A stretch of DNA of 64,000 nt from Phycisphaerales bacterium. GTDB lineage: Bacteria; Planctomycetota; Phycisphaerae; Phycisphaerales; UBA1924. The notes below the pieces were generated by a model that searched no databases, had not been told where the DNA came from, and worked only from the letters and a program-made list of their open reading frames with translations. Location: positions 62,001-126,000 of the forward strand of contig JADLFE010000020.1 in assembly GCA_020845755.1 (NCBI GenBank), read 5' to 3'. Positions 6,441-64,000 of the stretch are shown piece by piece. A program made the translations under genes and the position numbers. Numbering within the stretch: the stretch's first letter is position 1; each line of letters begins with the position of its first letter.

Positions 6441-6443
6441 CGC

Positions 6444-9400
6444 TCAACGCGCCGACGCCATCACCGGAACATCCTCGGAAATCGCGCTCGCTCTCCGTCC
6501 CGCTGCCTGCCCAGCCGCGCGCCCGGACGATCGGCTCCGGATTTTGTCGAGATACACATAGAAGACCGGCGTCGCAAATAGCGTGATGAGTTGCGAGAAG
6601 AGCAGGCCGCCGACAACCGCCAGCCCCAGCGGACGGCGTGACTCCGCCCCGGCGCCCGCGCCCAGCGCGATCGGGAGCGTCCCGATCAACGCCGCCATCG
6701 TCGTCATCATGATCGGGCGGAATCGCACCAGGCACGCGTTATAGATCGCGTCACGCGCCGAGACATCGGCGTTCTTCCGCTGCTCGATCGCAAAGTCGAC
6801 CATCATGATGCCGTTCTTCTTCACCAGACCGATCAGCATGATGACGCCGACGAACGCGAACAGCGAGAGTTCGACATGGAAGAAAGAGAGCGTCACCAGC
6901 GCGCCAAATCCCGCGAACGGCAGCGCCGACAGGATCGTGATCGGATGGATGAATGACTCGTAGAGAATGCCCAGGATCAAGTACATCACCACCAACGCCA
7001 TCACCAGCAACACCCCCAGCCCACCCAGCGAAGACTGGAACGCCTGGGCCGTCCCCTGGAAACTCGTCGAGATGCTCGGCGGCAGGGTCTCACGCGCCAG
7101 CCGCTGCACTTCGGAGACCGCCGGGCCCAGCGACGCGCCCGGCGCGAGGTTGAACGAGATCGTGACCGACGGCAACTGCCCCACATGATTCACAGACAAG
7201 GGACCATGGGTCTTCTTCAGCGATGCGACCGCCGTCAATTGGATCAACTTGCCCGACGAGCCGCGAACATACAGCGCCTCGAGCGCCGACGGATCGGTCT
7301 GGAATTGCGGGAGTAGTTCGAGAATCACGTCATAGTCGTTCGTCGGCGCATAGATCGTCGAAACCTGGCGCGTCCCGAACGCGCTCGAGAGCGCCGACTC
7401 GATCTGCAGCGGCGTGACGCCCACCGCCGCGGCCTTGTCGCGATCGATGTCGACCAGCAATTGCGGGTTGTTCAGTTGAAGATCGGTGGTCACATCCTGC
7501 ACGCCCGGGATCGCCCTCATCCGCTCCGCCAGCACCGGGGCCGACTGATACATCCCGTCCGTGTCCGGGCCCTGGAGCGTGAACTGGTACAGGCTCTTGG
7601 TGATCTGCCCGCCCACGCGGATCGTGGGCGGGTTCTGCAGGTACGCGCGCACGCCCGCGACCTGCGCAAACTGCGGGCGCAGTTCCTGGATCACCTGATC
7701 GACCGTCTTGGTCCGCCCGTGCTCGCCCTTGGCGCGCAGTTTGAGGAACAGCGTGCCCGTGTTCGTGCCCGTCGCCTGCCCGCCGCGGGCACCGATGCTC
7801 GACATGAACGCCTCGACTTCGGGGTGTTGCGACGCGATCTCGACCAGCGCCTGCTGGTACTTCACCATCTGCGCAAACGAAGTCCCTTCCGCGGCCTCGG
7901 TCGTCGCGATGATGCGCGACTGGTCGTCCGTGGGCAGGAATCCCTTAGGAATGGCCTGGAACAGATACACCGTGCCCGCCATGATCGCGGCCGAGACCAG
8001 CAGCGTCAGCGGCTTGGTGCGCAGCACGCCTCGCAGGATCCACGCGTACAGCCTCAAGATCCGCTCGAAGATCTTCTCCGACAGGTTGTAGAGCGCGCCG
8101 TGCGAATGGTGCGGGCTCTTCAGGAACCGCGAACACAGCATCGGCGTCAGCGTCAGCGACACCACGCCCGAAACCAGGATCGCGACCGCGATCGTGACGG
8201 CAAACTCGTTGAGCAGCCGCCCCACCAGCCCGCCCATGAACAGCACGGGCAGGAACACCGCGACCAGCGAGAACGTCATCGAGAGGATCGTGAAGCCGAT
8301 CTCGCCCGAGCCGTCGAACGCCGCCTGACGCGCCGGCTTGCCCATCTCCATGTGGCGGATGATGTTCTCCAGCACCACGATCGCGTCATCAACAACGAAT
8401 CCCACCGAGAGCGTGAGCGCCATCAGCGAGAGATTGTCGAGCGAGAAGCCCAGCACCTTCATCGCCGCGAATGTGCCGACGACCGAGATCGGCATCGCCA
8501 GGCTCGGGATGATCGTCGCCCTCACATTCCGCAGGAATACGAAGATCACCATCACCACCAGGCACAGCGTGAGGACCAGCGTTTCCTTCACGTCCGTGAT
8601 CGAATCCCGGATCGACACCGAGCGGTCATAGAGCTTGGCGATCGAGATCGACGGCGGCAACTGATCGCGGAATGTCGGGATCAATCGGTCGATCGCCGCC
8701 ACCACGTCCATCGTGTTCGTGCCCGGCTGGCGCTGGATCGCCAGCACGATCGCCCGCTCGATATCCCGCCCGCTCTCCCGATACCACGCCGCCGTCCGGT
8801 CGTTCTCCACGCCGTCGACCACGCTCGCGAGTTGGCTCAGGAGCACCGGATTCCCGCTGCGATACGCCACGATCGCGTCACGGTACTTCGACGCCGAGAG
8901 CAACTGCCCCGTCGATTCGAGCGTGATCGCCTGGCGCGGCCCGTTGATCACGCCGACCGGCAGGTTCACGTTCCGCTCCTGCACCGCCCTGGCGACCTCG
9001 TCGATCCCGATGTTCATCGACGCCAGCCGCTGCGGATCGACCTGCACACGCACCGCGTATTTCTGCGACCCGTACACCACCACCTGCGCCACTCCCGGCA
9101 GTTGGCTGATCCGCTGGCTCATCAGCGTCTCGGCGTACTCGTCCAGCGTGTACAGCGGGAGCGTCGGTGACGTCACCGCAACGAACAGTACCGGCTGGTC
9201 CGCCGGATTCACCTTCTTATACGACGGCGGGCTCGGCATCTCGGGAGGCAGGCGGCTGGCCGTGCGCGCGATCGCCGCCTGCACGTCCTGCGCCGCCGCG
9301 TCGATGTCCCGATCCAGCGAAAACTGCAGCGTGACCTGCGTACTCCCCTGTAGGCTCACCGAACTCATCGAGTCGATGCCCGCGATCGTCGAGAACTCTC

Positions 9401-9605
9401 GCTCCAGCGGCGTCGCCACCGACGACGCCATCGTCTCCGGCGATGATCCGGGAAGCGACGCGCTCACCTGGATCGTCGGAAAGTCCACGTTCGGCAGGTC
9501 GCTCACCGGCAACTGGCGATACGCGAACCAGCCGAACACGCAAAACGCCAGCATCACCAGCGTCGTCATCACGGGACGCCGGATAAACGGTGCGGAGATG
9601 TTCAT
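6444..9605 (-). CDS. RND multidrug efflux transporter, inner-membrane pump (MdtB/AcrB type)
   Basis: A 1053-residue protein of the hydrophobe/amphiphile efflux RND family, of normal length. The start M-N-I-S-A-P-F-I-R-R-P-V, the first transmembrane helix and the D-L-P-N-V-D-F-P-T-I motif after it are diagnostic, as are A-T-P-L-E in the porter domain, the D-D-A-I-V-V-L-E-N segment in TM4 that carries the proton-relay acidic residues, and a second set of helices near the C-terminus. Such pumps form trimers that export drugs, detergents or dyes with a periplasmic adaptor and an outer-membrane channel. The start is the ATG at 9605, which overlaps the stop of the adaptor gene by four bases. No TolC-like gene is adjacent. 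Confidence 0.93.
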   Translation of the reverse strand: MNISAPFIRRPVMTTLVMLAFCVFGWFAYRQLPVSDLPNVDFPTIQVSASLPGSSPETMASSVATPLEREFSTIAGIDSMSSVSLQGSTQVTLQFSLDRDIDAAAQDVQAAIARTASRLPPEMPSPPSYKKVNPADQPVLFVAVTSPTLPLYTLDEYAETLMSQRISQLPGVAQVVVYGSQKYAVRVQVDPQRLASMNIGIDEVARAVQERNVNLPVGVINGPRQAITLESTGQLLSASKYRDAIVAYRSGNPVLLSQLASVVDGVENDRTAAWYRESGRDIERAIVLAIQRQPGTNTMDVVAAIDRLIPTFRDQLPPSISIAKLYDRSVSIRDSITDVKETLVLTLCLVVMVIFVFLRNVRATIIPSLAMPISVVGTFAAMKVLGFSLDNLSLMALTLSVGFVVDDAIVVLENIIRHMEMGKPARQAAFDGSGEIGFTILSMTFSLVAVFLPVLFMGGLVGRLLNEFAVTIAVAILVSGVVSLTLTPMLCSRFLKSPHHSHGALYNLSEKIFERILRLYAWILRGVLRTKPLTLLVSAAIMAGTVYLFQAIPKGFLPTDDQSRIIATTEAAEGTSFAQMVKYQQALVEIASQHPEVEAFMSSIGARGGQATGTNTGTLFLKLRAKGEHGRTKTVDQVIQELRPQFAQVAGVRAYLQNPPTIRVGGQITKSLYQFTLQGPDTDGMYQSAPVLAERMRAIPGVQDVTTDLQLNNPQLLVDIDRDKAAAVGVTPLQIESALSSAFGTRQVSTIYAPTNDYDVILELLPQFQTDPSALEALYVRGSSGKLIQLTAVASLKKTHGPLSVNHVGQLPSVTISFNLAPGASLGPAVSEVQRLARETLPPSISTSFQGTAQAFQSSLGGLGVLLVMALVVMYLILGILYESFIHPITILSALPFAGFGALVTLSFFHVELSLFAFVGVIMLIGLVKKNGIMMVDFAIEQRKNADVSARDAIYNACLVRFRPIMMTTMAALIGTLPIALGAGAGAESRRPLGLAVVGGLLFSQLITLFATPVFYVYLDKIRSRSSGRAAGQAAGRRASAISEDVPVMASAR

Positions 9606-10765
9606 CGCCGAGCGCCCCCGTCGGTGTTCTTGATCTGAACCTTCGCGCCCGGCCCGAGCCGGAGTTGCCCGTCGGTCACGACGACCTCTCCCGCCGAGAC
9701 GCCCTTGTCGATGATGCTCTTCCCATCGACCGAACGCCGAACGCTCACGCCGCGCACCTCGACCGTCTGGTCCTGCTTCACCACGAACACGCCGGGCCCC
9801 GATTGCGTCGCCTGGATCGCGCTGTCGGGGATCTGCACGCACCCGGGCTCAACACCCAGCACGAGCGTCACGTTCACGAATCGCCCAGGCCACAGCCGCT
9901 TGTCCGAGTTGTCGAATGTCGCCTTGAGCCTGATCGTTCCCGTGTCGGTGTCGACCTTGGTATCGATGAAACTCGCTTTCCCCACGATCGGCGCGCCGGT
10001 GTCGCCGCTAGGCACCACCTCCACCCGCAGCGAGCGCCCCATCGGGTCCGCTGCCGAGGCGAGGTACGCCTCGCGGATCGCGGGAAAACGCTCCTCGGGA
10101 ACGTTGAACGCGGCATCGATCGGATCGATCTGGCTGACCTCGACCATCTCGGTCTCGCTCGACTTCACGATCGCGCCGGGCTTCACCAGAAACTGACCGA
10201 GCCGCCCGTCGAACGGCGCGCTGATCGTGCAATACTCGAGATTGAGCCTGGTCGCGTCCAGGTCCGCCTGCTTGGCCGCGACCAGCGCGTCCGCCGCCGC
10301 AACCTTCGCCTGCGCCTCCTCATACTCGCGCTGCGACAACGCCGCCGACGCCAGCACGCTCTTGTTTCGAGCTTCAAGATTGTGCGCATCCAGCGCCAGC
10401 GCCTTGCTCTGCCCAAGCGCGCCCTCCGCCTGCGCCACCGCGGCCTTGAACATCGCCTCGTCCAGCCTCGCCAGCGCCTGCCCAGCCTTGACCTCCGCCC
10501 CTTCCTCCGCGAGCACCGCCGCCACCCGCCCCGTTACCTGCGGCTTCATCACCACCGACGCCTTCGACTGCACCACGCCGATCGTGCGGATCAGCACCGG
10601 CGCGTCCGCCTGCTCGGCCGTCGCGACCACCACCGGCACCGGGGGCGGCGCGCTCGGCGCCGCGGTTGCCGCTGGCTTCTCGCAACCGATCACCAACAAT
10701 TCCGCCGCCACAAACAGGCCCGCGGCCGACATCACAGTCCATGCTTTCCACATCGGGCTTCTCAT
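9602..10765 (-). CDS. RND efflux membrane fusion (periplasmic adaptor) lipoprotein
   Basis: A 387-residue adaptor with a signal peptide and lipobox V-I-G-C near residue 28, so it is probably a lipoprotein like AcrA/MdtA. It has the usual order: a barrel-sandwich start (G-V-V-Q-S-K and P-Q-V-T-G-R-V), an Ala-rich helical hairpin at about 95-175, the returning half of the barrel (I-S-A-P-F-D-G-R-L-G), a beta-barrel and a membrane-proximal domain. It couples the RND pump to an outer-membrane channel. Start and stop both overlap neighbours by four bases, so tetR, adaptor and pump form one transcriptional unit. Confidence 0.92.
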   Translation of the reverse strand: MRSPMWKAWTVMSAAGLFVAAELLVIGCEKPAATAAPSAPPPVPVVVATAEQADAPVLIRTIGVVQSKASVVMKPQVTGRVAAVLAEEGAEVKAGQALARLDEAMFKAAVAQAEGALGQSKALALDAHNLEARNKSVLASAALSQREYEEAQAKVAAADALVAAKQADLDATRLNLEYCTISAPFDGRLGQFLVKPGAIVKSSETEMVEVSQIDPIDAAFNVPEERFPAIREAYLASAADPMGRSLRVEVVPSGDTGAPIVGKASFIDTKVDTDTGTIRLKATFDNSDKRLWPGRFVNVTLVLGVEPGCVQIPDSAIQATQSGPGVFVVKQDQTVEVRGVSVRRSVDGKSIIDKGVSAGEVVVTDGQLRLGPGAKVQIKNTDGGARR

Positions 10766-11502
10766 GCCTCATTCTCCCCGCGAGCGCTCGCACGCCGCTT
10801 CCGCTCGCGATCCGTCAGCAGCCCGTTGAACGCCAGATCAAGAATCCCCTCGGCCTGATTCACCAGACTTCTCTGCCGACCCGCGATGTAGTTCGTGAAC
10901 ATCGTGCCGTAGATCAGGTCCCCCAAGACGTCCGTGATCCGCTCCACGGGCATCTCGCGCACCCGCCCGTCGCGGATCAGGCCGCGATAGAGTTCGTGCC
11001 AGCGAGCCACGTTCGCCTCGCGGTGCGTGAAATACGTCGGCTTCTTCCGCTCGCGGAACTCCGATCGCTCCTGGATCAGCAGTTCCACGTTCTCCGGGTG
11101 ATCGTGGAAGAACTTCAGATACCGCCGGATCGCCACCTCGATCTTCTCGAGCGGGTCATCCACCGCCTGGATCGCCGCGTCGATCGCGCGACGCATCGTG
11201 ATCATCACGTGATCCACCGCGCCCTGAAAGAGCGCGCCCTTCGACGGGAAGTACCGGTACAGCGTCCCCTTCCCCACGCCCAGTTCGTCCGCCACATCCT
11301 GCAGGTCCGTGCCCGCAAAGCCGTCCCGCGCAAACAGACGCGTCGCGACCTCGATGATCTCCTCGCGCCGCCGCGCGGGCAATTCGGGATCCCGCGGCCG
11401 CCCAGGGCCCGGGCGCGTCACATTCTCCCGCGCCCCTCCACGCGCCGCTCGCTCGCCCGTCGCTCGCTTGGTCTTGATCGCCACGTCGAACTCCACGCTC
11501 AA
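10762..11502 (-). CDS. TetR family transcriptional repressor of the efflux operon
   Basis: A 246-residue regulator with a basic, probably disordered N-terminus of about 40 residues and a TetR helix-turn-helix at about 47-95 (A-T-R-L-F-A-R-D-G-F, then V-G-K-G-T-L-Y-R-Y-F). The rest is the all-helical ligand and dimer domain. First gene of the operon with the adaptor and RND pump. The start as given is TTG at 11502; GTG codons at 11496 and 11484 are alternatives. A palindrome of the TetR operator type lies 6 bp upstream of the TTG, directly after a promoter, so autorepression relieved by a pump substrate is the likely control. The inducing ligand cannot be read from the sequence. Confidence 0.92.
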   Translation of the reverse strand: MSVEFDVAIKTKRATGERAARGGARENVTRPGPGRPRDPELPARRREEIIEVATRLFARDGFAGTDLQDVADELGVGKGTLYRYFPSKGALFQGAVDHVMITMRRAIDAAIQAVDDPLEKIEVAIRRYLKFFHDHPENVELLIQERSEFRERKKPTYFTHREANVARWHELYRGLIRDGRVREMPVERITDVLGDLIYGTMFTNYIAGRQRSLVNQAEGILDLAFNGLLTDRERKRRASARGENEA

Positions 11503-11508
11503 TTAGCG

Positions 11509-11524
11509 GACTGACTGGTCAGTC
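11509..11524. promoter_or_regulatory. TetR-type operator palindrome
   Basis: GACTGAC-TG-GTCAGTC: two perfect 7-bp inverted arms around a 2-bp centre. It lies one base downstream of the -10 box and just before the tetR start, where a bound dimer would block transcription initiation. Arms of the GACTGAC/GTCAGTC kind are common for TetR repressors of efflux pumps. Confidence 0.8.
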
Positions 11525-11525
11525 T

Positions 11526-11553
11526 ATTATTCCGACCCCGTCACCCCGGTCAA
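11526..11553 (-). promoter_or_regulatory. Sigma-70 type promoter of the tetR-RND operon
   Basis: Read on the minus strand, TTGACC (11553-11548) is followed by a 16-bp spacer and AATAAT (11531-11526). Each box matches the consensus at five of six positions. The operator follows immediately, so the 5' UTR would be very short or the transcript leaderless. Confidence 0.75.
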
Positions 11554-11597
11554 TCCGAGTCCCGCCGGGGGCTTCCCCCATCGCCTCGCCAAAAACG

Positions 11598-11628
11598 AAA
11601 AAAGAGCGGCGCTGCTCGCACCGCCCTC
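11598..11628 (-). terminator. Probable Rho-independent terminator of the 11675-12313 gene
   Basis: On the minus strand a GAGGGCG / CGCC-G-CTC stem with one bulged base is followed directly by six T. It is about 45 bp downstream of the stop codon of the unrecognised gene. Confidence 0.5.
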
Positions 11629-11647
11629 AGGAGGAACCCCGCGTTGT

Positions 11648-11670
11648 CTGGCCGGTGATTCGCCGGCCAG
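11648..11670. other. Perfect hairpin just after the stop codon
   Basis: CTGGCCGG, a 7-base loop and CCGGCCAG form a perfect 8-bp stem four bases beyond the stop codon of the minus-strand gene at 11675. It has no T-run of its own and precedes the terminator at 11598. It could protect the 3' end of the mRNA. Confidence 0.5.
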
Positions 11671-11674
11671 TCAC

Positions 11675-12313
11675 TCAACGAAGGGAATCAATATGGAATC
11701 GCATCGTCGGCGGACGCTCGACGCCCGTGACGACCTGCCAGAACGGTTCTCCCTGCCCATCCTGATACCACGAACGCATCGGGCCGCTTTCATCCTCCGC
11801 GTGCAGGTCCAAGAGCGGCCCGCCCACGAAGATCGCCCGATGAACCAGAAGCAGATCATCACTCACATACTCGCTCTCGGCCGCAACGCCCATGAACGCG
11901 TCCGCCAGCCGCGCAAACAGCGCCCGGTCGTGCTTGAGCAGCGTGTCGGCGTCGTGCCAGAGGTAATAGCGATACTTCGCGTTGGCCCGCCCGCGATAGC
12001 GCTGGCGTGTGCGCAAGAGCGAGACCACGCCGCCCGGGCCGTCGATCTGCCGCTCCAGCACCGGACCGGGCAACGCCCGTTCCAACTGAGAACAGAACGA
12101 CTCGAGGTCCGTGATGTCGCGCCCGTGGAGCACGCACAATTCGGCGTACGGCAGGCCAGCGAGAAATTGGCCTAGCGTCGCGCCGAACTGCACCCGCAAA
12201 CGGGGCGCGGCCGACCACGCCGTCAGATGATGTTCGTCGAGGAGCTGAGTCACGTCCGCCGGCCAATCTTTGGCGGCGAACAGTGAGCCCGGCCCGCGAG
12301 CAACGGTGCTCAT
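11675..12313 (-). CDS. Hypothetical protein, function not recognised
   Basis: A 212-residue, apparently cytoplasmic protein; no signal peptide or membrane helix. I start at the ATG at 12313; the longer in-frame reading to 12403 adds 30 residues without any ribosome-binding logic. Visible features are a mixed alpha/beta pattern, an R-Y-R-G-R-A-N-A-K-Y-R-Y-Y-L-W-H-D-A-D segment in the middle, a D-D-L-L-L-V-H-R-A-I-F-V-G-G region and a C-terminal E-P-F-W-Q-V-V-T-G. I do not recognise the family. It stands alone, with a hairpin and a likely terminator downstream and a 660-bp intergenic region upstream. Confidence 0.65.
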   Translation of the reverse strand: MSTVARGPGSLFAAKDWPADVTQLLDEHHLTAWSAAPRLRVQFGATLGQFLAGLPYAELCVLHGRDITDLESFCSQLERALPGPVLERQIDGPGGVVSLLRTRQRYRGRANAKYRYYLWHDADTLLKHDRALFARLADAFMGVAAESEYVSDDLLLVHRAIFVGGPLLDLHAEDESGPMRSWYQDGQGEPFWQVVTGVERPPTMRFHIDSLR

Positions 12314-12431
12314 GGAACCACCGAAATGTCCCGGTTGCTCGGCACGCCGGACCCACCATGGGTCCCCCCGGAAAAAGCGCGCCAACCCCCCGGTCACATC
12401 CAATGTGCCTCAAATCGGGCCTCATGCCAGT

Positions 12432-12462
12432 TACAGACGACACATTTCCTACAGACGACACA
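12432..12462. repeat. Direct repeat TACAGACGACACA x2
   Basis: Two exact copies of the 13-mer start at 12432 and 12450, an 18-bp period. The spacing, just under two helical turns, would suit an activator binding in tandem, but no regulator is known for it. Confidence 0.55.
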
Positions 12463-12521
12463 CACAGACCGCGTTCTCGGGCCGTTTTTGCCGAACGCCC
12501 GCCGTAAGAACGATGCCTGTT

Positions 12522-12566
12522 CGGGTTAAACCCGCTCCTTGACACTCGATACCCCGGCGATACGCT
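12522..12566 (+). promoter_or_regulatory. Candidate promoter with adjacent operator-like palindrome
   Basis: CGGGTT-A-AACCCG (12522-12534) is a perfect inverted repeat with 6-bp arms. Four bases on is TTGACA (12539-12544), a perfect -35 box, with TACGCT 16 bp further as a weak -10. It would read toward the secreted-protein cassette, whose first start is about 410 bp downstream. Confidence 0.35.
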
Positions 12567-12973
12567 GGCGATGTCGTTGGTGCCGCGGGTTTGCCGCGGC
12601 TGAAACGGGAAGTGCGGTGACGATCGCCACGCGATCCAATCCGCCGCGGACGCGCCGCCGTAAGGGGTGCCGACGCGTGAACGACGGGCGAACAGCCCGG
12701 GCTCGGCCAATCGCCGGGCGCCACTGACGCGGCACGCGTCGGGAAGGCCGATCACGCCGAGCCCCAAGCCGGAAGACCGACCACGACCGCCGGGCCAGCG
12801 CCCGGTCGCTGGGCTGCCCTCGCGAGATGGGGCGACCGGCGAGGCCGCGTGCCGCCCCCGGCGTCGGTCCCTCGCCTCTCGCCGATCCGCTCCGATGGGC
12901 CCGTCGTTCACCACGGGGGTCGTCCCGCGCGATTCGGGACGGGTCGCACGCGCCGCGTGCGGAAGGGCTCGTT

Positions 12974-13855
12974 GTGGTTGACATCGTTTCGTCTCGGCGT
13001 GCGTTGCTCGTTTGTGCCGCGGCCTTGCAGTGCGGCATCGCACTCTCGCCCGCGATTGCCTCTGATCCCTGGGCAGATCGCGTCGTGTCGTTCGACGCCG
13101 GAACAGGCGGGAGCGACGGCTACGACCTCACGCCCTCGGCGCTCGGGAGCCCGACGCGATTCACGGGAGTTTCCTTCGGCTTTCCGTCGGCTGTCACGCC
13201 CTTCAGCCCGCCCTTTGAGCCGACCGACATCGTGTCGCTCGGCATCGGCGGGCAGATCACCGTCGCGTTCGATGAGCCCGTGACAAACGACGCCGCCAAC
13301 CCGTTCGGCATCGATCTGCTTCTCTTCGGCAACTCCTTCTTCTACGACGCCGATTGGCCCAACGGACGCGTGGGCGGCTTCGCGGGCGAGGGCGGCCTGA
13401 TCGAAGTGTCCGTCGACGGCCTCGTCTGGCACGCCGTTCCCTTCCTCGCCGCCGACGCCGGGTACCCGACCCTCGGCTACCTCGACCTCGCCACGCCCTA
13501 TAGCGATATTCCCGGCCTCGTCGAATCAGACTTCACACGCCCGGTTGATCCGTCATTCGATGCAAGCGACAAGACCTATGCCGAGATCGTCGCGGCGTAC
13601 CAGGGCTCAGGCGGCGGGCTGGGTGTTGATCTCGCGTCTGTGGGCCTCCATGCGATCTCGTTCGTGCGCGTCAGCAACCCCGACGGCATCGGCGGAACGC
13701 CGGAGATCGACGCCTTCGCCGATGTCTCGCCCATCCCATCGCCCGGCGCGGCCTGGATCGGCGCAATGGGCGTGCTCGCGTGCGGACGCGTCACACACCG
13801 ACGCAATGGACAACTCGCCGCACCGCGCTCACCCGCTACGGGAGCGCGGGCATGA
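12974..13855 (+). CDS. Secreted cell-surface protein with PEP-CTERM-like C-terminus
   Basis: I start at GTG 12974, preceded by GGAAGGG at a good distance; the frame is open further up but without a ribosome site. The 293 residues begin with a signal peptide (hydrophobic to about residue 27, A-I-A cleavage). The body is rich in Gly, Asp and aromatic residues and looks like a beta-sandwich, with F-G-I-D-L-L-L-F-G-N-S-F-F as its most striking stretch. The C-terminus (P-I-P-S-P-G, a hydrophobic stretch, then R-R) resembles a PEP-CTERM-type sorting signal, so it may be processed and retained at the surface. It overlaps the next gene by ATGA, so the pair is probably co-translated. Function is not recognised. 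Confidence 0.7.
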   Translation: MVDIVSSRRALLVCAAALQCGIALSPAIASDPWADRVVSFDAGTGGSDGYDLTPSALGSPTRFTGVSFGFPSAVTPFSPPFEPTDIVSLGIGGQITVAFDEPVTNDAANPFGIDLLLFGNSFFYDADWPNGRVGGFAGEGGLIEVSVDGLVWHAVPFLAADAGYPTLGYLDLATPYSDIPGLVESDFTRPVDPSFDASDKTYAEIVAAYQGSGGGLGVDLASVGLHAISFVRVSNPDGIGGTPEIDAFADVSPIPSPGAAWIGAMGVLACGRVTHRRNGQLAAPRSPATGARA

Positions 13856-15450
13856 CTCCCTCCCGCGCGATCTTGCTGTCGCTCATCGCCGGCGCATGCT
13901 TCTCCCCCACCGCCTTCGCGCAGGGGTGGACACACTTTGCCGGCGCCCCGTCGCGCTCGTCAACGAGCGCGAGCATGCTGGCGCCGAACGCCGGCGTGCT
14001 CGCCTCGCCGCTCTGGGCGCTGTCGCAGGATGTGCAAGGGCGCGCGATCACGTTTGTCGGTCAATCAACGCCCGTCGTCTCTCCCACGCACGTGCTGGCG
14101 ATCGGCTCGGTCCAGGTCACGTCCAGGCAGTTCAGTCTCTACGCGGTCGATCGACGCACCGGTGTGATTGCATGGGCCGCCCCGATCGCGTCGCCGGTCC
14201 TTGACTCGTGGTCCTCGCCCGCGCTGGATCTCGAGCACCACGCGGCGATTGTGGCGTCGGGCACGACGCTCGCGTCGTTTGATCTCTCGACCGGCGCGCT
14301 GAAATGGTCGCGGACGCTCTCGGGCCCGGTGGTCAACGCCTCGCCGGTCGTGACGGACGACCTGCTCATGCGCGATCGCGTGCTCATCACCGAGTACGAC
14401 GGCTTTGCGGGCAATGCACGACTCGTGTGCGTGAACATCGATCCGTTCGATGCGGCGCTCAACCCGCACCAGGCTGGCGCGATCGTCTGGACGTATCAAC
14501 TCGGCATGTCCTCGGGCGACACGGTCGCGTATGACCAGGGACACGCGTACGTCGCCACGATGGGCGATCCCGGCTATGCGCCCGGCTCGATCCTGTGCTT
14601 TGATGTCGTCGCCGGGCCCACGCCGCTCTGGTCGTTCGACAATGTCATCGACGAGGGTTTCTTCGCCGCGCCGGGAGTGCATCATCCCCTCGGACGCGGT
14701 GCGCTGGTCTTCGCGGCGTCCTATGCCTTCAGCGGTGGACGTGAATCAGCGAACCTCGTGAGACTCGACGCACGCACCGGCGACATGCACTGGTCCGTAC
14801 CGTGCAATCGCACCGGCTCCACGCCGATCGTCCTCCCCGATGGCCGCATCGCGCTCTCGGGCGGGCTCAAGGGCTACGGCACGCTCCCGACGCTGCAACT
14901 CTTCGCGGATCACCAGGTGTGGGCCGAGCCATTGTGGGATTCGGCCTTCAACACCTGGACCGACAGCAACCACAACGGACAGATCGATCTTGGCGAGTTC
15001 GTGGTCATGGGAGGCTGGACGCACCAGCCCGCCCTCGCCGCCGGGCACAACATCCTCTTCATCGGCGCGACGCCGACCAGCGGCAGTTCATACGCGCCGT
15101 GCACCGACCTCTACGCGCTCGACATCACCAAACTCCCCACCGGTGTCGGCAACGCCCAGCCCGGCTTCATCGCGGCCCAGAGATCGGGCGTCGGCAGCGC
15201 GCCCGCGCTCGACACCGGCAACCTCTACAGCATCGGCGCGAGTGGGCTGCAGGCGTTCGGCCCGCCAACGACGCACACCGATGTCAACGCCGACGGCGTG
15301 ACCGATATCGAGGACCTGTATTGCTGGGAACAGGCGCGCGGCGATCGCGATGTCAACCGCGACGGCACGATCAACGACCTCGACCACACCGAACTCCTCC
15401 GCGTCCTTCGCGCCGACGAACGCGAGGATATCGCGAGAAATCGGCCATGA
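13852..15450 (+). CDS. Secreted PQQ-type beta-propeller protein with dockerin-like C-terminus
   Basis: A 532-residue protein with a signal peptide (A-F-A-Q cleavage near residue 24). Repeated units such as [13 protein letters not shown] and [10 protein letters not shown] are PQQ-propeller blades (about residues 40-470). The last 60 residues hold two EF-hand-like loops, [13 protein letters not shown] and [12 protein letters not shown], as in type I dockerin domains; they should bind calcium and may dock to a partner. No cohesin gene is seen in the window. Likely a surface-exposed or periplasmic binding or structural protein; catalytic activity cannot be inferred. It is coupled by ATGA overlaps on both sides. 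Confidence 0.78.
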
Positions 15451-56509: not shown

Positions 56510-56950
56510 CTACTTCGCGCATATCGTCGCGCCGACCTCGCACGCCTTCCCCGCTCGGACATAGCCGATCACGAGGCTCTCGCCCTCACGCTTCGATCGT
56601 ACCGCCTCACGCACCGCCGACGGCGTCGCCCAGTCCCTGCCGTCCAGGTGCGTGATGATGTCGTACTTCTGCAGGCCGGCATGCTCCGCGGCAGAATTCG
56701 GTACGACATGCGTGATGATGCTGGTGCGCGATGCGTCCACACCCGCCTGCGTTGCCGTCGCGCCCGAGACCGACGAGAGATCGACGCCGAGCATCGACGC
56801 TCGACGACCCGAATACCCGCCGTCCAGATCCTCGTAATGATCGCCGGCGACAATGATGCACCCGGGGAGCGCAACCCCCGCGCCCAGCGCCAGCCCGAGC
56901 ACCGCGGGCATGAGCAAACGACCAGCAAGCGAACAGCGATTGAGATTCAT
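56510..56950 (-). CDS. PDZ-domain lipoprotein
   Basis: A 146-residue protein, signal peptide with lipobox L-P-G-C near residue 28. From about residue 55 it holds a PDZ-like domain: I-I-T-H-V-V-P-N-S-A-A-E-H-A-G-L-Q-K-Y-D-I-I-T is the usual ligand-loop and strand pattern. No protease domain is attached, so it may act as an adaptor. I start at ATG 56950 after GGGGGA; ATG 56962 is an option. Confidence 0.75.
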   Translation of the reverse strand: MNLNRCSLAGRLLMPAVLGLALGAGVALPGCIIVAGDHYEDLDGGYSGRRASMLGVDLSSVSGATATQAGVDASRTSIITHVVPNSAAEHAGLQKYDIITHLDGRDWATPSAVREAVRSKREGESLVIGYVRAGKACEVGATICAK

Positions 56951-57004
56951 GATGTCCCCCATCTCTCCACCGGAGACGCCCGCGTGCGCACGCCCGGTAG
57001 ACAT

Positions 57005-57013
57005 GTTATACCA
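57005..57013 (-). promoter_or_regulatory. Candidate extended -10 promoter of the PDZ lipoprotein gene
   Basis: On the minus strand TGG-TATAAC: a TATAAC -10 box preceded by the TGn extension, 55 bp before the start codon. No good -35 box was found. Confidence 0.35.
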
Positions 57014-57152
57014 CACTAACTTCGCCGGGTTTCACGCCACGCCCCGCATTTCACGGAGAATCTCCATCCCGATCGTCGCCCAAACCCGACGGGCCACGCT
57101 CGCGTACGCCCGAACCGCATCGTCGAAGTTGCGTCCCGGTACCATTGGGATA

Positions 57153-58358
57153 ATGCGACCACGCGCTTCACACAACCGCCTCCTGGCCCCGTCACTCCTG
57201 ATCCTGCTTCACGCCGGCGTCGCTACCGCCGCCCAACCTCCAGCGCCGCCGGGCGCGATCTCCTCACACGCACCGCTCCCCGCCGCCGATCGCGCCGCGA
57301 TCGAAGCAACGCTCTCGTCGATGGCCTCCGCGGCGGTCCGCGCCGACGCCGACGCCTTCCTCGAGAACGTCGTCTTTGTTGATCCGCAGTTCGAACGCGA
57401 AATGCGCAACATGGCCAAGGACCTGACCCTCCACGCGCCCTCCCGCGTCGAGTTTCGCATGGCCGAGCAGGGCGAGGCGAACGCCGATCGCGCCCGCGTC
57501 GCCTTCACAATCGACTTCGACATGCCGTTCGATCAGAACGGCGCCAGGATCGACGGCCCGCCGCGACGCGCCCGCGCCCCCTACCCGCACTGCGAATTCC
57601 GTCGCGACCAGAGCGGCAAGTGGCGCTTCGCCGGCGAAGTCTGGAAAGAGATCAAGGGCGACGCCTTCGTGGTGCGCTATCTCGACGACAACTCCCTCGC
57701 CACCGCGGAAATCGTCCACCGCGTCTTCCCCATCGCCAAGGCACACGACGACGAGGGCTTCGGCATCGCCGGTACCCCCGCCGCCAACCGCCACCAGATC
57801 ATCAAACTCTACGAAAACATGGACCACCTCAAGGCAACCGTCTACCTCTCGATGCCCGACCCCGTCCTCGGCGGCTGGAACGAATCCGGCGAGTCGATCA
57901 AGTTCATGTCGAACTACACCCAGGGCGAACACAGTTGGACCCGCGCCTTCGCCCATGAATATGGCCACGTCGCGACCTGGGCCCTGGGCGATCGCGCCAG
58001 CGAGTTGCCCTGGTGGGTCGCGGAAGGCGCCGCGGAACTCGCCGCGGAAAAGTGGGACCCCCAGGGAAGCAACGACCGACAGGTCCGCGCATTGGCAAAG
58101 GCCGGAAAACTCGCCGCGTGGCGCGACATCGCCGTCTATCACGACACCCGTCAGGAACTCAAGTTCCTCGCCTATGTCCAGGGACACCACCTCATGGGCT
58201 ATGTCTCCGAACACTTCGGACGCGACAAACGCAACGCCTGGATCGCGGCGGCGGCCTCCGGCAAGCCCATCGACGACGCCACGATCGATGCCCTGAACAT
58301 GTCTTTCGATCAACTCGATCGCGACTGGCGCGATTCCCTCATCCCCGAGCGGAAGTAG
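57153..58358 (+). CDS. Secreted gluzincin-type metallopeptidase, first of a tandem pair
   Basis: A 401-residue protein with signal peptide (cleavage near residue 27, V-A-T-A-A). A SnoaL-like or helical N-terminal region (about 45-175) precedes the peptidase part. H-E-Y-G-H at 268-272 is the zinc motif and W-W-V-A-E-G at 287-292 supplies Glu 291 as third ligand, as in gluzincins (peptidase MA type). Downstream G-H-H-L-M-G-Y-V-S-E-H-F-G is shared with the next gene. The paralogue at 58367 starts nine bases after its stop, so the two are co-transcribed. Substrate unknown. Confidence 0.82.
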   Translation: MRPRASHNRLLAPSLLILLHAGVATAAQPPAPPGAISSHAPLPAADRAAIEATLSSMASAAVRADADAFLENVVFVDPQFEREMRNMAKDLTLHAPSRVEFRMAEQGEANADRARVAFTIDFDMPFDQNGARIDGPPRRARAPYPHCEFRRDQSGKWRFAGEVWKEIKGDAFVVRYLDDNSLATAEIVHRVFPIAKAHDDEGFGIAGTPAANRHQIIKLYENMDHLKATVYLSMPDPVLGGWNESGESIKFMSNYTQGEHSWTRAFAHEYGHVATWALGDRASELPWWVAEGAAELAAEKWDPQGSNDRQVRALAKAGKLAAWRDIAVYHDTRQELKFLAYVQGHHLMGYVSEHFGRDKRNAWIAAAASGKPIDDATIDALNMSFDQLDRDWRDSLIPERK

Positions 58359-58366
58359 GACCACGC

Positions 58367-59656
58367 ATGAGAACCGACCCGCTGACGCTGACGCCGATCT
58401 CCCCCTGCTCGATTCGTCGCCCGCTCGCACGCACCACGACGGGCGCTCTCCTCGTCGCGGCCTGCTCGCTCCTTTTCCTCCACCCCGCGACGGCTCAGGA
58501 TGCACAATCGCCCGCATCGACGAACACGCCCGTCCTCTCCCCCACCAGGACCGACGCCGTCCCCGCTTCCCCTCCCGATCCGATCCCCGCGACCGACGCC
58601 GACGTCGCCACGCTTCACACCCTGATCGACCGCATGACCAAGGCCGTGCTCGCGACCGATGTCGCGGGATACACCTCCTGCGTCGATACGTCCGACCCGA
58701 TCTTCCTCCAGGAACAGAAGAACTGGGCCAAGGACCTCGAACGCAAGCCCGTCGAAGTGTTCTCGATCAAGGCCGAAAACATCCGCACTCTCAACCAACA
58801 CCAGGTCATCGCTGATCTCACGATGAACTGGAAGATCAAGGACGCCGGATCACCACGCTTCCTGAAGTTCGTCGCACGCTTCGTCGACCGCAAGGGACAA
58901 CTCCTCTACGCCGGCGAACACTGGAAAGTCCTCGAACGCGAGGGCGTACGCGTCTTCTTCGACGCCGGCCGCGAGAACATCGCGTCCATGATCTGTGACA
59001 TCATGCCCGACATCCGCAAGCATGTCCACAACGGCTTCGCCCTCACCATCGATCGCGCCCAGGAAATCAAACTCTACTCGTCCATGTCGCACCTGCAGCA
59101 GTCGATCTACCTCAGTTACACCGACGGCCTGTCCGGATGGAACGAGCCCGGAGAGTCCATCAAGATGATCGCCTCCGCCCACCCCGATAAGGAAGGCATG
59201 ACCAGCGTCCTCGCGCATGAATACGGGCACGTCTGCACCTTCGAACTCGGACCCAGGGCCAACGACGCGCCGTGGTGGGTGCTCGAGGGCGTCGCCGAAT
59301 TGTCCAGCGAGTTCTACGACGACAACGGACAATTCGCGCAACGCGCCGTCCGCCGCATGGCCAAGAACGGCCGCCTCCGCGACTGGGCCTCGCTCAGCGA
59401 CTTCCACAACACCAAGCAGGCCGATATGCAGATGGTCTACACCCAGGGCCACGCCATGCTCGGCTACATCTCCGAACGCTTCGGACGCGAGAAACGCATC
59501 GCGTGGCTTCGCGCCATGGCCACGGGCTCATCCATCGACGACGCCTGCATGGCCATCTTCGATCTGTCCTTCGCGGACCTCGATACGCAGTGGCGAGACG
59601 CCCTGAAACCAAAGGAAGAAGCGCCCACCCCCGCCGAAACCCCCTCGAAAGAGTGA
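58367..59656 (+). CDS. Secreted gluzincin-type metallopeptidase, second of a tandem pair
   Basis: A 429-residue paralogue of the preceding protein. The signal peptide ends near residue 45 (P-A-T-A-Q) and a Pro/Ser/Thr-rich linker follows. The zinc motif H-E-Y-G-H is at 284-288 and W-W-V-L-E-G at 303-308 with Glu 307. W-N-E-P-G-E-S-I-K and Q-G-H-A-M-L-G-Y-I-S-E-R-F-G-R also match the first copy (W-N-E-S-G-E-S-I-K; G-H-H-L-M-G-Y-V-S-E-H-F-G). The C-terminus is Pro/Glu-rich. All ligands appear intact in both copies, so both may be active. Confidence 0.82.
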   Translation: MRTDPLTLTPISPCSIRRPLARTTTGALLVAACSLLFLHPATAQDAQSPASTNTPVLSPTRTDAVPASPPDPIPATDADVATLHTLIDRMTKAVLATDVAGYTSCVDTSDPIFLQEQKNWAKDLERKPVEVFSIKAENIRTLNQHQVIADLTMNWKIKDAGSPRFLKFVARFVDRKGQLLYAGEHWKVLEREGVRVFFDAGRENIASMICDIMPDIRKHVHNGFALTIDRAQEIKLYSSMSHLQQSIYLSYTDGLSGWNEPGESIKMIASAHPDKEGMTSVLAHEYGHVCTFELGPRANDAPWWVLEGVAELSSEFYDDNGQFAQRAVRRMAKNGRLRDWASLSDFHNTKQADMQMVYTQGHAMLGYISERFGREKRIAWLRAMATGSSIDDACMAIFDLSFADLDTQWRDALKPKEEAPTPAETPSKE

Positions 59657-59671
59657 CCGCCACCCCGCGGC

Positions 59672-60046
59672 TCACCCCGCCATCCGCCTGAACAACGCCT
59701 TGTACCCCACGCTCCACGCACGCCCACGCGACACCGCCGTCTCTGTGTACGAGATGAACGTCATGTCCGTCCACGTGCGCCCCGCGTTGTCCACCAGCGT
59801 CCCCGCCGTCGGCCAGTGCGACAACTCCGCCGTCACCGCGTCACGCAGCGCCCACAACGCGCTCTCGCTCGCCGCCACCAACCGCCCCTCCACCGTCACG
59901 TTGAGTTCCAGCAGCCCCAGCAGCGTCGACCCCGCGTCACCAATCCCGAGCGATATGTTCAACGGCGCCAACTCCCCCTGCACACCCATCACAAACACGT
60001 TCGGCCCGCTCCCGAACAGATTCTTCGACTTGAACGAACTCGCCAT
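59672..60046 (-). CDS. Phage-like small structural protein (tail or tail-completion type)
   Basis: A 124-residue protein started at ATG 60046, with GGGAGG nine bases upstream. A Gly-rich N-terminus (F-G-S-G-P-N-V-F-V-M-G) is followed by a strand-rich region and a G-T-L-V-D-N-A-G-R-T-W turn. Strands of this kind are common in phage tail-associated proteins, and the gene is the last of a four-gene run that begins with a SU10-like capsid gene. I know no named family for it; the phage assignment is by position. Confidence 0.5.
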   Translation of the reverse strand: MASSFKSKNLFGSGPNVFVMGVQGELAPLNISLGIGDAGSTLLGLLELNVTVEGRLVAASESALWALRDAVTAELSHWPTAGTLVDNAGRTWTDMTFISYTETAVSRGRAWSVGYKALFRRMAG

Positions 60047-60145
60047 CACTCACCTCCCACGCTCGACCCGCTCGCTTGTCCCGCTGCCTTCCTCTTCTTC
60101 TTCCAATGCCGAATCCCGAACACCGCCCCGACTCCTCCCCACTCC

Positions 60146-60732: not shown

Positions 60733-61371
60733 TCAGCCCCTGACGAACCACACCACGTTCATCCGCCGCGTCGCGTCCGCCACGCCGTCGCCGTCGGTGT
60801 CCACCCGCGCCGCCGCCGTCTGCCGCTCGGCCGCGAAACGCCGCCTGTACATCTCCGACCGCTCCCACAACGCCGATCCCGGCCCGGACAACGACCCCGC
60901 GGCTGCATACACCAGGTGCAGCGCGCCCAGCGCCTCGACCCGTGCCAGCGACGCCCCGTTCACCACCGCGCCCTCGCCCAACGACCCCACGACCTCCCCA
61001 CTCTCAAGACCCAGCAGTCGCAGCACCAGGTCGTGCGTCATGCCCACCTGCGGCCCGAAGGTCCGCACCTCCACGCTCGCGCCCGTCGTGTCCGACGGCC
61101 ACACCGCCGCCGCGTCCACGCTCGCCCGACACCGCGACACCTCGACCTCCGTCGCGCTGATCCGCTCCACCACTTCGTACGCGATGTTGTTGACGACGAC
61201 GACATGCCCCGCGTCAACCCCCGCCCCGACAAAGTCGCGGTCGTACGTGACCAGCGCCAGCACGCCGTCCTCCAGATCGCCACTCCCCTTCACCAGACGC
61301 TGCCCGATCCACGAAACTTCATTGAACACGTTGGGCTCGATCGCCAAGAGATCACGGTCGTGTGCGAACAT
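60733..61371 (-). CDS. Phage-like protein, possible head-tail connector
   Basis: A 212-residue protein, start ATG 61371 after CAGGAG. The middle is rich in strands (D-A-G-H-V-V-V-V-N-N-I-A-Y-E-V-V-E-R-I), and the C-terminus carries D-T-D-G-D-G-V-A-D-A-T-R-R, a calcium-binding-type loop, followed by M-N-V-V-W-F-V-R. It is the first gene after the capsid gene, which is where head-completion or connector proteins usually stand. Its role is inferred from that position. Confidence 0.5.
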   Translation of the reverse strand: MFAHDRDLLAIEPNVFNEVSWIGQRLVKGSGDLEDGVLALVTYDRDFVGAGVDAGHVVVVNNIAYEVVERISATEVEVSRCRASVDAAAVWPSDTTGASVEVRTFGPQVGMTHDLVLRLLGLESGEVVGSLGEGAVVNGASLARVEALGALHLVYAAAGSLSGPGSALWERSEMYRRRFAAERQTAAARVDTDGDGVADATRRMNVVWFVRG

Positions 61372-61487: not shown

Positions 61488-62546
61488 TCAGGTCGTCGAC
61501 AGGCCGCGAACCAGCCCGTGCGCGTTCTCGTTGCGGAACTCCAGCGTGTACTCACCGACCACCATGCCCGCGGCGCGGTCGCCCTGCGCGCCCATCGCCT
61601 GGTACGCGAAACTGCGCCCGCGCAGCGGCATCACCTCCACGCGCGAACTGTCCAGGAACAGCACCGTGTCCGCCGGCACCCAGCGGCTGACCACCACCTT
61701 GCACACGCCAAAGTCGCTCTCGTACACGCTCACCAGGTCACGGAACTTGGTGTCCTCGGGCGCATACGCACGGCTCGAACTGACCAGTTGATTGATGCGG
61801 CGCTTCTGCAGCCCGCCGCACACGATCGTGTCGATCCGCCCCGAACTCTGCTCCCAGACCGTCCGCAACGCCGCGTTGAGCACCACGTCGTTCAGGTCCG
61901 TGCCCCCGCCGCCCCCCGACGGGAACCCGTTCTGCCCGGGTGTGAACTGGTTGGTCGTCACCTGGCGGATGATCCCGTTCATCGAACGTCGCACGCTGGC
62001 CGAGCCCTGCGGCGTGCCCGAGGGCGCCGTGCCGTTGATCACCGTGTTCTCCAGGTCGCGCAGCAGTTCGCGCATCCGCTCCTGTCTCTGGAAGTCCAGT
62101 TCGTCGGATGCGCCGTAGACACGTGCGGCCCGCATCGAGCCCGAGACCTCGACCGACGCGGCGAAGATCTGCGTGTAGTTCTGGCGGCGCGAGCGCGAGG
62201 TGAAGCGCGACGCCGGCGCGTCACCACCTTCCAGGGCCGCGTTGCCCACGATCGTGACCTTGAGCCCGTTGGAGAGGCTCGATGCCGCCGTCCCGCCGTA
62301 ACGGCGCACCACGGTGAGCGTGTTGGTCGAGACCGCGGTGACCTGCATGATCTCGGTCGCGTTGCCGGGGCGCACCAGGTCGCCGACCTGGAAGCGCGAT
62401 CCGTTGTTGACCGTAACGCTGGTCGCGTCCTGCGCGTTGGGCGTGAAGGTCGTCTGGTTGATGGTGTCGGTGTTGGGCAGGAGCGTGTCCACGCTGCTTA
62501 CCCGTCTGACGACGCTCTCATTTGTCTGGAACGAGGGCCAGATCAC
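61488..62546 (-). CDS. SU10-type phage major capsid protein (DUF5309), probably 5'-truncated
   Basis: A 352-residue frame from GTG 62546. V-D-T-L-L-P-N-T-D-T-I-N, V-T-V-N-N-G-S-R-F-Q-V-G-D-L-V-R-P and E-I-M-Q-V-T-A-V are the inserted strand domain of the family. R-R-Q-N-Y-T-Q-I-F-A-A-S-V-E-V-S-G-S followed by D-E-L-D-F-Q-R-Q-E-R-M-R-E-L-L-R-D-L-E is its most conserved block. The protein forms the phage head shell. The usual first 40 or so residues (the P-x-x-T-P-F-type arm) are missing: a stop codon lies 6 bp upstream and there is no ribosome-binding site, unlike the other three genes of the run. No portal, terminase or protease gene follows. Confidence 0.75.
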   Translation of the reverse strand: MIWPSFQTNESVVRRVSSVDTLLPNTDTINQTTFTPNAQDATSVTVNNGSRFQVGDLVRPGNATEIMQVTAVSTNTLTVVRRYGGTAASSLSNGLKVTIVGNAALEGGDAPASRFTSRSRRQNYTQIFAASVEVSGSMRAARVYGASDELDFQRQERMRELLRDLENTVINGTAPSGTPQGSASVRRSMNGIIRQVTTNQFTPGQNGFPSGGGGGTDLNDVVLNAALRTVWEQSSGRIDTIVCGGLQKRRINQLVSSSRAYAPEDTKFRDLVSVYESDFGVCKVVVSRWVPADTVLFLDSSRVEVMPLRGRSFAYQAMGAQGDRAAGMVVGEYTLEFRNENAHGLVRGLSTT

Positions 62547-62740
62547 CGCTCAATAGCGAGACCCGCCTTGGTGCTCGGTCCAACAGGGCTGCAGCACGGT
62601 GGACAACCCAGTCAATCGTCCAGCGCGATTCCGAGGGATCGCGTACGATGGGCCTCGTCGACGTCAATCAGTTGGGCGATGGAAAGACCAGGGCACTACC
62701 CCTAGAGTCCCACGCACGTTCGTATTTGGTATGGGTACTC

Positions 62741-64000
62741 ATGAAGCTGATCCAACACGTCAACTCTGACAAACTCCGCGGTGGCTACTACACCCCCGAT
62801 TCCGTCGTGGACTGGTGCGTCGATCAAGTGATGCGACTCATGCGCCCGGACGCTCCTGGAACCTGGCTCGAGCCCTCTGCTGGCGATGGTGCATTTCTCC
62901 GGGGGATCGCGCGTCTCCAAAAGCGGCACTCCGCCTCGAAGCCTGAGATTCATGCCGTCGAGTTGATTGAAGACGAGGCGGCAAAGTGCGAGCGGGTGCT
63001 TGAGTCCTGCGGTCTTGCGGGTCAGGTCACTCCGGGGAGTTTCTTCGAGTGGGCCCGCGAGTGTCGAACAAAGTTCGATGCGGTTGTTGGGAATCCTCCC
63101 TATGTCCGGTACCAGTTCGTCCCGACGCAGGACCGGATACTGGCTGAGGGGCTTATGGCGGATCTCGGAATTGAACTCCGAGGCGTATCCAATCTCTGGA
63201 TCCCATTTGCTGTTCTGAGCATCGCCGCGCTCCGCCCCGGCGGAGCGTTCTCACTCGTCCTGCCCAGTGAGTTGTTTTCGACGGTGTCCGGCGGCCAGTT
63301 CCGGGCGTTCGTCGTTCGGGAGTGCACTTCACTACGCGTGGACCTTTTCCCAAGAGACACATTTCCAGACATCCTTCAAGACGTCGTGGTCGTCAGCGGC
63401 GTGCGCGGCAAACGCCCGGCGGATCGTCGAACGGTGATCTTCTGCGAACATCGGGGAGCAGAGCCGACGGAGTGGAAGCACACCGTCGAGGCTTCTCCAG
63501 AATCGTGGCTTCGTCATCTGCTCACAAAAGACGAAATCTGGGCATACTGCGAAGCCAATCGATTGGCAGGCTTCTACGCACTCGGCGATGTCGCCAAGAT
63601 CGGCGTTTCCATCGTTACCGGCGCAAACCCGTTCTTCACTATTGACGATGCCACAGTAGAAGAGTTCGGTCTGCAAGCATGGACTCGGCCTTTACTAGCG
63701 CGGACCTCGGACTGCCCAGGCGTCGTGTTCACTGACGAGGACCATGCGGCAGCCCGTCGCTCAGGCAGCCGCGCGTGGCTGCTTGATTTCTCTGACGAGA
63801 GACCATCACCGTCAAGTCGGACAGGAGCCAGTCGATACCTGCGCGACGGTGAGGCTCAAGGCCTGCCACAGCGATTCAAGTGCCGGATACGAACGCCGTG
63901 GTACCGAGTACCGCAGATCAAGTCTGGGCGCTTGATGATGACGAAGCGGGCGCATCATTATCACCGCCTTATCCTCAATGAAGCCAATGTGTTCACCACA
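62741..64000 (+). CDS. N6-adenine DNA methyltransferase, Eco57I-like (3' partial)
   Basis: An open frame from ATG 62741 runs 420 codons to the window edge without a stop. G-Y-Y-T-P at 15-19, the SAM-binding motif I E-P-S-A-G-D-G-A-F at 44-52 and the catalytic N-P-P-Y at 118-121 identify a class I N6-adenine methylase of the Eco57I/type IIG-related sort. After about residue 280 comes a target-recognition-like region. Codon use differs from the neighbours: TTA, CTA, AGA, ATA and GTA occur, and GC is visibly lower, which suggests horizontal transfer. It may belong to a restriction-modification system whose nuclease lies beyond the window. No clear ribosome-binding site precedes the ATG. Confidence 0.88.
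   Translation, partial: MKLIQHVNSDKLRGGYYTPDSVVDWCVDQVMRLMRPDAPGTWLEPSAGDGAFLRGIARLQKRHSASKPEIHAVELIEDEAAKCERVLESCGLAGQVTPGSFFEWARECRTKFDAVVGNPPYVRYQFVPTQDRILAEGLMADLGIELRGVSNLWIPFAVLSIAALRPGGAFSLVLPSELFSTVSGGQFRAFVVRECTSLRVDLFPRDTFPDILQDVVVVSGVRGKRPADRRTVIFCEHRGAEPTEWKHTVEASPESWLRHLLTKDEIWAYCEANRLAGFYALGDVAKIGVSIVTGANPFFTIDDATVEEFGLQAWTRPLLARTSDCPGVVFTDEDHAAARRSGSRAWLLDFSDERPSPSSRTGASRYLRDGEAQGLPQRFKCRIRTPWYRVPQIKSGRLMMTKRAHHYHRLILNEANVFTT

Follow-up and report, generated by a model that had tools for sequence, protein, structure and literature searches.

A probable satellite-like element with restriction-modification cargo inside the capsid gene of a gene-transfer-agent-like cluster of Phycisphaerae

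The window analysed here was a stretch of 64,000 nucleotides from a Phycisphaerales genome (G000, a 64-contig assembly), covering C20:62001-126000; contig C20 runs 2.4 kb further to the right. Close to the right end of the window, a major capsid gene that had lost its 5' part met a DNA methylase, and this border was found to be the integration junction of a mobile element in the capsid gene. The features around the border were as follows.

61488..62489, minus strand: SU10-type major capsid gene belonging to the conserved host cluster, C-terminal part only (about residues 56-389); frame intact, PF17236, aligning to residues 57-387 of an intact homologue
62488..62489, no strand: core dinucleotide, TC on the plus strand and GA in the capsid sense, where host and element meet (attR); 17 attR and 15 attL genomes compared
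62490..62510, no strand: end of the element, an attachment-site arm reading GTCAGACGGG in the capsid sense; an inverted copy of the arm lies at the other end on contig C33
62511..62740, no strand: element sequence from the attR arm to the methylase start, which gives the capsid open reading frame (ORF) its alternative start GTG 62546; read from the sequence
62741..64000, continuing to C20:126399 beyond the window, plus strand: DNA adenine methylase of the Eco57I type, 552 aa, restriction-modification (R-M) cargo (Pfam, PADLOC)
C20:126412-127692, convergent to the methylase: PLD/NgoFVII-like nuclease, 426 aa (Pfam)

The ORF at 61488-62546 on the minus strand matched SU10_MCP (PF17236, E 1.1e-70), with the profile covered only from about position 56. 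Most relatives aligned to this ORF only from its residue 19-20 onward, and those that aligned before this point were themselves carriers of an insert. The last capsid base was located at 62488-62489, immediately left of position 62490, where an earlier note made from the letters of the window had correctly placed the loss of the capsid 5' part. Alignment of the junctions (attR seen in 17 genomes, attL in 15) revealed that the host letters were variable right up to GA on both sides. The element-side letters were near constant, TGCGCTCGTATCCCGTCTGAC at attL and GTCAGACGGGTAAGCAG at attR, with small changes in some genomes; the exception was G169, whose recombinase was only 62% alike and whose end sequence differed. 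Genome G207 carried GAA, not GAG, before the core, which narrowed the core to GA. This dinucleotide lay in the Asp codon of capsid residue 56, and the uninterrupted site (attB) encoded a conserved EWxED.LLPN stretch. Serine recombinases are expected to leave a short core and no long direct repeats. The flanking direct repeats that the earlier note had proposed to look for were not there, as the junctions held no long repeats and only the 2-bp core.

A capsid-profile search of the same genome located the missing capsid N-terminus on contig C33, 1.6 kb from the contig end. Its upstream neighbours were an SPP1 Gp6-like portal gene and a gene of 171 aa, and a large serine recombinase (domains Resolvase, Recombinase and zinc ribbon) abutted it downstream on the opposite strand; the search for an integrase, also proposed earlier, was thus answered at the other end of the insert. 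When the two capsid halves were joined at the core, an open capsid of 389 aa was obtained, which over 387 residues shared 92.0% identity with the intact one of G200, an uninterrupted relative of the same genus. The joined frames were also open in 9 of 10 other paired inserts (the insert of G211 was left unpaired), and that of G213 contained a stop. Read alone, the window, with contig ends close by, shows no more than a capsid gene whose 5' end could simply have been deleted, or a defence island of the chromosome next to a decayed prophage. This explanation was ruled out by the capsid N-terminus, which persists on C33 and fits in frame, and relatives show the closed element; we leave it practically no probability. 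The suggestion of an insertion or deletion that had placed an R-M gene here therefore held for the insertion, and the deletion is excluded.

With the intact capsid as query, matches were found in 147 of 163 genomes of the family. Seventeen of these 147 capsids were split, with the C-terminal match starting at residue 53-57 and with matching junction letters, which is beyond chance. Fourteen of the 17 genomes contained a recombinase of at least 85% identity, the values for G017 and G169 were 68% and 62%, respectively, and in G261 the cargo and attR were present and no close recombinase was found. The same capsid site was occupied outside the family in G091 and G268. In G074, the capsid N-part adjoined a 58% recombinase and the remainder of the capsid was rearranged; the C-part lay inverted and apart from the N-part at L200 (G074:C41) 4138-8296, perhaps as a result of rearrangement after integration. 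One scan of named genomes with the recombinase returned 18 loci, mostly titled Phycisphaerales, Phycisphaerae or Phycisphaeraceae, and a few titled Planctomycetota, Planctomycetaceae or uncultured. A chimera of the metagenome bin might be suspected, given that the genome is split into 64 contigs and that contigs end to either side. The same junctions occurred in independent assemblies, including the single-contig G036 and a large contig of G091, and these single-contig inserts ruled out an assembly artefact, which we consider extremely improbable. The junctions, the GA core, the inverted-repeat ends, the frame restored on removal and the use of one site in 17 family and further class genomes were all observed directly.

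The element could be read through in single contigs of relatives, in the order capsid C-part, cargo, 172-aa gene, sigma-like gene, protease-capsid fusion, 121-aa gene, AAA ATPase, HARE-HTH gene, recombinase, capsid N-part and portal. The full order was also present in a one-contig chromosome. In G000, the end of C20 overlapped exactly over 127 bp with C55, a 4.9-kb contig carrying the sigma-like gene, the protease-capsid fusion and the AAA ATPase (the C55 fusion was used as a stop-to-stop frame, and its residue numbers include about 90 residues before the likely start). The Pfam domains of the element were Phage_capsid_4, Sigma70_r2, AAA_25 and HARE-HTH, and the PHROG matches were "major head and protease protein" and primase-like. 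Eight inserts (G002, G036, G213, G260, G190, G017, G169 and G091) were 10.5-11.6 kb long; the insert of G268 was 6.9 kb, and that of G438, at another capsid site, 10.9 kb. No match to portal, terminase or tail genes was found among the scanned genes of two complete elements, in which small ORFs were only partly scanned. The conserved 172-aa gene (L002:12865-13380) gave a confident model (pLDDT 93) with no significant fold match, the best being a MerR-type regulator (E 0.05); it is a candidate for the element's regulator or directionality factor.

The phage-type protease-capsid fusion, the primase/helicase-like AAA protein and the sigma-like gene would also fit a decayed small prophage that had lost its portal, terminase and tail genes. 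The reduced gene set and the size, however, recurred in 11-kb copies of many genera, with recombinases mostly 91-98% identical, and the relatives on viral contigs, though diverged, shared the gene order. Such decay appears unlikely, because a decaying prophage would not stay so uniform. The insert instead resembled a satellite: it was a small integrative element with a serine recombinase and, among the scanned genes, an incomplete set of virion genes. P4, with a size of about 10-12 kb, is comparable to the element and carries a tyrosine integrase, unlike the large serine recombinase found here. Phage-inducible chromosomal islands (PICIs) are marked by a tyrosine integrase, an AlpA-type regulator and the PICI gene order; the element departed from the first of these marks, as its integrase was a serine recombinase. 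P4-like satellites and PICIs, including capsid-forming ones, likewise combine an integrase, few genes and an own or altered capsid (PMC9122126; PMC10803314, PMC10690885). Unlike in these groups, the protease-capsid fusion of the element was not accompanied by portal or terminase genes, and the attachment site lay inside virion genes. The P4 hotspot exchanges anti-phage systems in a small slot between conserved genes (PMC9122126), and the element has such a slot, filled, unlike that of P4-like satellites, mostly by R-M systems.

The methylase was indeed the Eco57I-like enzyme that the earlier note had seen beginning at the border. From ATG 62741, it matched M_Eco57I_C (PF22837, E 1.8e-38) and Eco57I (PF07669, E 3.1e-10) in Pfam and the Type II methyltransferase profile of PADLOC (E 1.2e-117). 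Its translation contained GNPPY; NPPY is an adenine-methylase motif. A nuclease had been expected to the right of the window, and one was found on C20 close behind the methylase. It scored 25.2 bits against the NgoFVII profile PF09565 (cut-off 23.8) and 26 bits against PF13091, just below the cut-off of 27. In its HKD-like motif (H.K...GSAN), H103, K105, G121, S122 and N124 were invariant in 3 of 3 nucleases compared. One HKD-like motif, an NgoFVII profile score above the cut-off and a methylase neighbour are features shared with NgoFVII and BfiI. Unlike these enzymes, the nuclease reached only 25.2 bits on the NgoFVII profile and had no sequence match to any solved structure in the PDB; the mean pLDDT of its AlphaFold model was 48.5. 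The convergent pair was also present in G069, another genome of the order (59% and 35% identity), and on viral contig L169, where it fills the corresponding slot of an element related to this one (65% and 40% identity). An Eco57I-type methylase with NPPY, an adjacent PLD nuclease and a pair conserved elsewhere are the marks of a Type II system, and the two genes are most likely a Type II R-M pair. A further related methylase (30%) was noted in this genome at G000:C47:1337-2689.

The change of composition described at the border was real and narrower than had been supposed. The GC content was 0.597 in kilobase 62751-63750, below every 1-kb window of 1-62000 (mean 0.661, sd 0.023, minimum 0.602), and the GC content at third codon positions (GC3) fell from 0.92 in the capsid part to 0.65 in the methylase. 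The rest of the element was host-like (GC 0.65-0.69, GC3 0.82-0.88). The shift was therefore rejected as a mark of a whole island; it was confined to the methylase-nuclease cargo. The cargo slot was defined as the genes between attR and the 172-aa gene, with PADLOC profiles and with cargo ORFs picked by a GC3 rule of thumb, and its contents were as follows.

G000: methylase and PLD nuclease
G002: methylase-specificity fusion (Pfam) and REase_II (E 7e-92)
G036: REase_II (5e-17) and an N6-methylase-like ORF (ORF level only)
G017: methylase and REase_II (4e-25)
G057: methylase, specificity and REase_II (1e-88); G205 similar at ORF level only
G191: methylase and weak REase_II
G261: methylase and an unrecognised partner
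G260: methylase and unrecognised partners; G211 similar at ORF level only
G190: methylase-specificity fusion
G213: PglX-like methylase
G207: single large methylase
G169: trypsin-like protein

The slot beside attR carries an exchangeable R-M system. The insertion brought in more than the defence gene that had been supposed: it comprises an entire phage-like element, capsid gene included, in which the methylase is exchangeable cargo. Relatives with the same capsid-methylase order had been named in advance as a sign against an insertion at this border; half of this was found, since the order was the same because the relatives house elements of this kind in which other methylases are present. The slot between attR and the conserved 172-aa gene offers a simple handle for mining new restriction systems.

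Over 12 taxa, the mean identity was 93% for the recombinase versus 70% for the host capsid part (65 pairs) and 58% for the host portal (55 pairs); 14 taxa were compared, with G017 and G169 left out of the means, and the identity of the partial recombinase of G057 was distorted by its short length. Between G000 and G057, which belong to one genus, the synonymous divergence (dS) was 0.09 in the shared recombinase piece, 0.39 in the capsid part and 0.32 in the portal. The element moves horizontally, as its recombinases were about 93% identical where host capsids were 70% identical. The AAA gene was mosaic: the copies of G000, G190 and G218 were 96-98% alike and about 73-75% identical to most others. 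Judged from these comparisons, the two AAA_25 alleles on otherwise similar elements represent modular exchange within the backbone.

The interrupted gene was not part of a phage remnant, as the earlier note had supposed, and belonged to a gene set that the family and much of the class have retained. The capsid was present in 109 of 112 good family genomes and in 132 of 298 genomes of a class-wide sample, and the terminase in 107 of the same 112. Portal, capsid and several small genes kept their order in 9-10 of 10 other loci. The terminase large subunit, recognised by PHROG, lay at C33:68957-70468 in a locus separate from the capsid. In 17 of the 18 genomes tested with PF03237 it stayed below the cut-off of that profile; the absence of a terminase that this profile suggested (over the cut-off in 1 of 18) was rejected when the family terminase, used as query, was found in 150 of 163 family genomes. 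None of 42 intact capsids contained an internal stop, all 7 genera with at least two members were monophyletic, and the ratio of nonsynonymous to synonymous divergence was 0.04-0.25 in pairs where dS was estimable. No relative of the host capsid was found in viral contigs by a scan reaching close relatives only. By these sequence measures, the host capsid gene is vertically inherited and under purifying selection, and is no remnant. Terminase, portal and capsid together suggest a gene-transfer-agent-like system in Phycisphaerae. Conserved, vertically inherited head and packaging genes were found, and the set resembles RcGTA, whose genes for terminase, portal, scaffold-like protein and capsid are likewise conserved, passed on vertically and subject to purifying selection (PMC7947584). 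Unlike RcGTA, it has an SU10-type capsid and an SPP1-type portal and is represented here by head and packaging genes alone. No description of this terminase-portal-capsid set was found in literature searches, and it is a candidate gene transfer agent.

Taken together, the border very probably marks a satellite-like element of about 11 kb that was integrated by a large serine recombinase into the capsid gene of a vertically inherited gene-transfer-agent-like cluster. The recombinase would integrate the element by attP x attB recombination and, with a directionality factor, would excise it and restore the capsid gene. The protease-capsid fusion may build or redirect capsids with the portal, terminase and tail of a helper, the R-M cargo may protect the cell, and the element with it, against other phages, and the integrated element would hold the host particle switched off. 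Several points weigh against this explanation. The link between C55 and C33 was absent from the assembly, so that the element of G000 consisted of three pieces whose order came from relatives. No R-M gene was found in the slot of the G169 element (recombinase 62%). No tail genes were identified in the conserved cluster, the genes after the capsid being without clear tail match in the absence of a dedicated search, and "gene transfer agent" is for this reason used as a likeness only. Of the 17 recombinase 3' ends with at least 85% identity and a visible flank, 14 were in the capsid and 3 elsewhere (L075 in G225, L176 and L177 in G034), and the capsid of both genomes was intact. Finally, excision, laboratory mobility, particle formation and R-M activity are predictions. 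The three off-capsid recombinases (85-92% identity) had the same element end up to the core, and strict capsid specificity of the recombinase was rejected on account of them; the fragment G205:C41 stood outside the count of 17 ends.

Relatives of the recombinase were also found in other virion genes. In nine viral contigs (L160-L168), a 40-47% recombinase was joined in frame to a phage terminase resuming at residue 320, and in L160, L161 and L164 the terminase N-part to residue 320-321 was visible 10-11 kb off, at the opposite end. As L163 and L164 seem to be one virus, the number of independent cases is below nine. A 56% recombinase in L156 cut a phage protease-capsid gene after about residue 427, and in L169 the element followed residue 633 of a phage protease-capsid gene. 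In L163 the terminase part was confirmed by PHROG, as were terminase, portal and capsid in L156. The recombinase of L159 was joined to a DNA methylase, the genes adjoining the recombinase in L157/L150 and L158 had no PHROG match, and L072 and G035 gave no clear target. These diverged relatives on viral contigs kept the same element gene order. In G438, a 46% recombinase was located in the same SU10 capsid at residue 324, with the element at L199 (G438:C103) 4445-15345 reading in the capsid direction. The residue-56 group (14 members, support 0.98), the terminase group (9 members, support 1.0) and the residue-324 copy were all separate in the recombinase tree, the deeper nodes of which were poorly supported.

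One rival reading concerns the proposed function of the insertion and leaves the insertion itself untouched. The capsid site may simply be a convenient, conserved attachment site in a dispensable gene, with damage to the particle as an unselected side effect. Conserved coding sites are often used by serine recombinases, the attB region encodes the EWxED.LLPN stretch described above, and the off-site insertions in G225 and G034 point in the same direction. On the other side, a divergent recombinase of the same clade (46%) entered the same gene at residue 324 in G438, and other relatives entered phage terminase genes (9 contigs) and phage capsid genes (2 contigs); neutral choice is disfavoured because such a repeat among thousands of conserved genes is unlikely. 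We regard the convenient site as possible, at well under an even chance. A bolder reading, which we hold tentatively and somewhat short of evens, makes the element one branch of a hyperparasitic clade that has recombinases adapted to virion genes and that places a reversible lock on the particle assembly of a rival or helper. Such elements would target the gene-transfer-agent-like capsid (at two sites), phage terminase and phage capsid; integration would disarm the other particle, the element would supply a capsid of its own together with a restriction system open to exchange, and the gene could be returned intact by precise excision.

A parallel to this is found in competence genes. Prophages and islands integrate into comYC, comFA, comEC and comK (PMC4774983, PMC12637031), integrases of 34.1% identity target two comFA sites, and elements are argued to be selected to block transformation (PMC4774983). 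The present element similarly interrupts a putative DNA-transfer gene of its host, and 46% identical recombinases hit two sites of one capsid. Unlike in the competence genes, the target is a virus-derived particle gene set and not the transformation machinery. By analogy, the element may gain by silencing the host's particle. If the hyperparasite reading is true, the DNA-transfer particle of the Phycisphaerae host would be locked, which would also stop the particle from curing the element by recombination. This would extend the attack of mobile elements on host DNA-transfer machinery from competence genes to virus-derived particles and would name a group of elements living inside phage virion genes. 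Literature searches returned nothing on point for such elements or for a planctomycete gene transfer agent. The parts, a serine recombinase, a satellite-like backbone and an R-M slot, are of known kinds; for their combination, in an element that enters a gene-transfer-agent-like capsid gene and whose relatives enter terminase and capsid genes of phages, those searches found no precedent.

Further genes of the window lay to the left of the capsid part.

60733..61371, minus strand: 212-aa gene after the capsid (ORF), in a position like that of the connector-region gene of relatives (own copy not aligned)
59672..60049, minus strand: 125-aa gene (ORF), in a position like that of a 126-aa gene of relatives, close to where the conserved cluster ends (own copy not aligned)

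The 212-aa gene had no Pfam or PHROG match. Beside the capsid cluster, two neighbouring proteins were encoded at 56853-59656 on the plus strand; the second contained a Peptidase MA domain and the first was similar by eye. Elsewhere in this genome, two further serine recombinases (37-38%) were located on C6 and C53; these and the related methylase on C47 perhaps belong to other elements.

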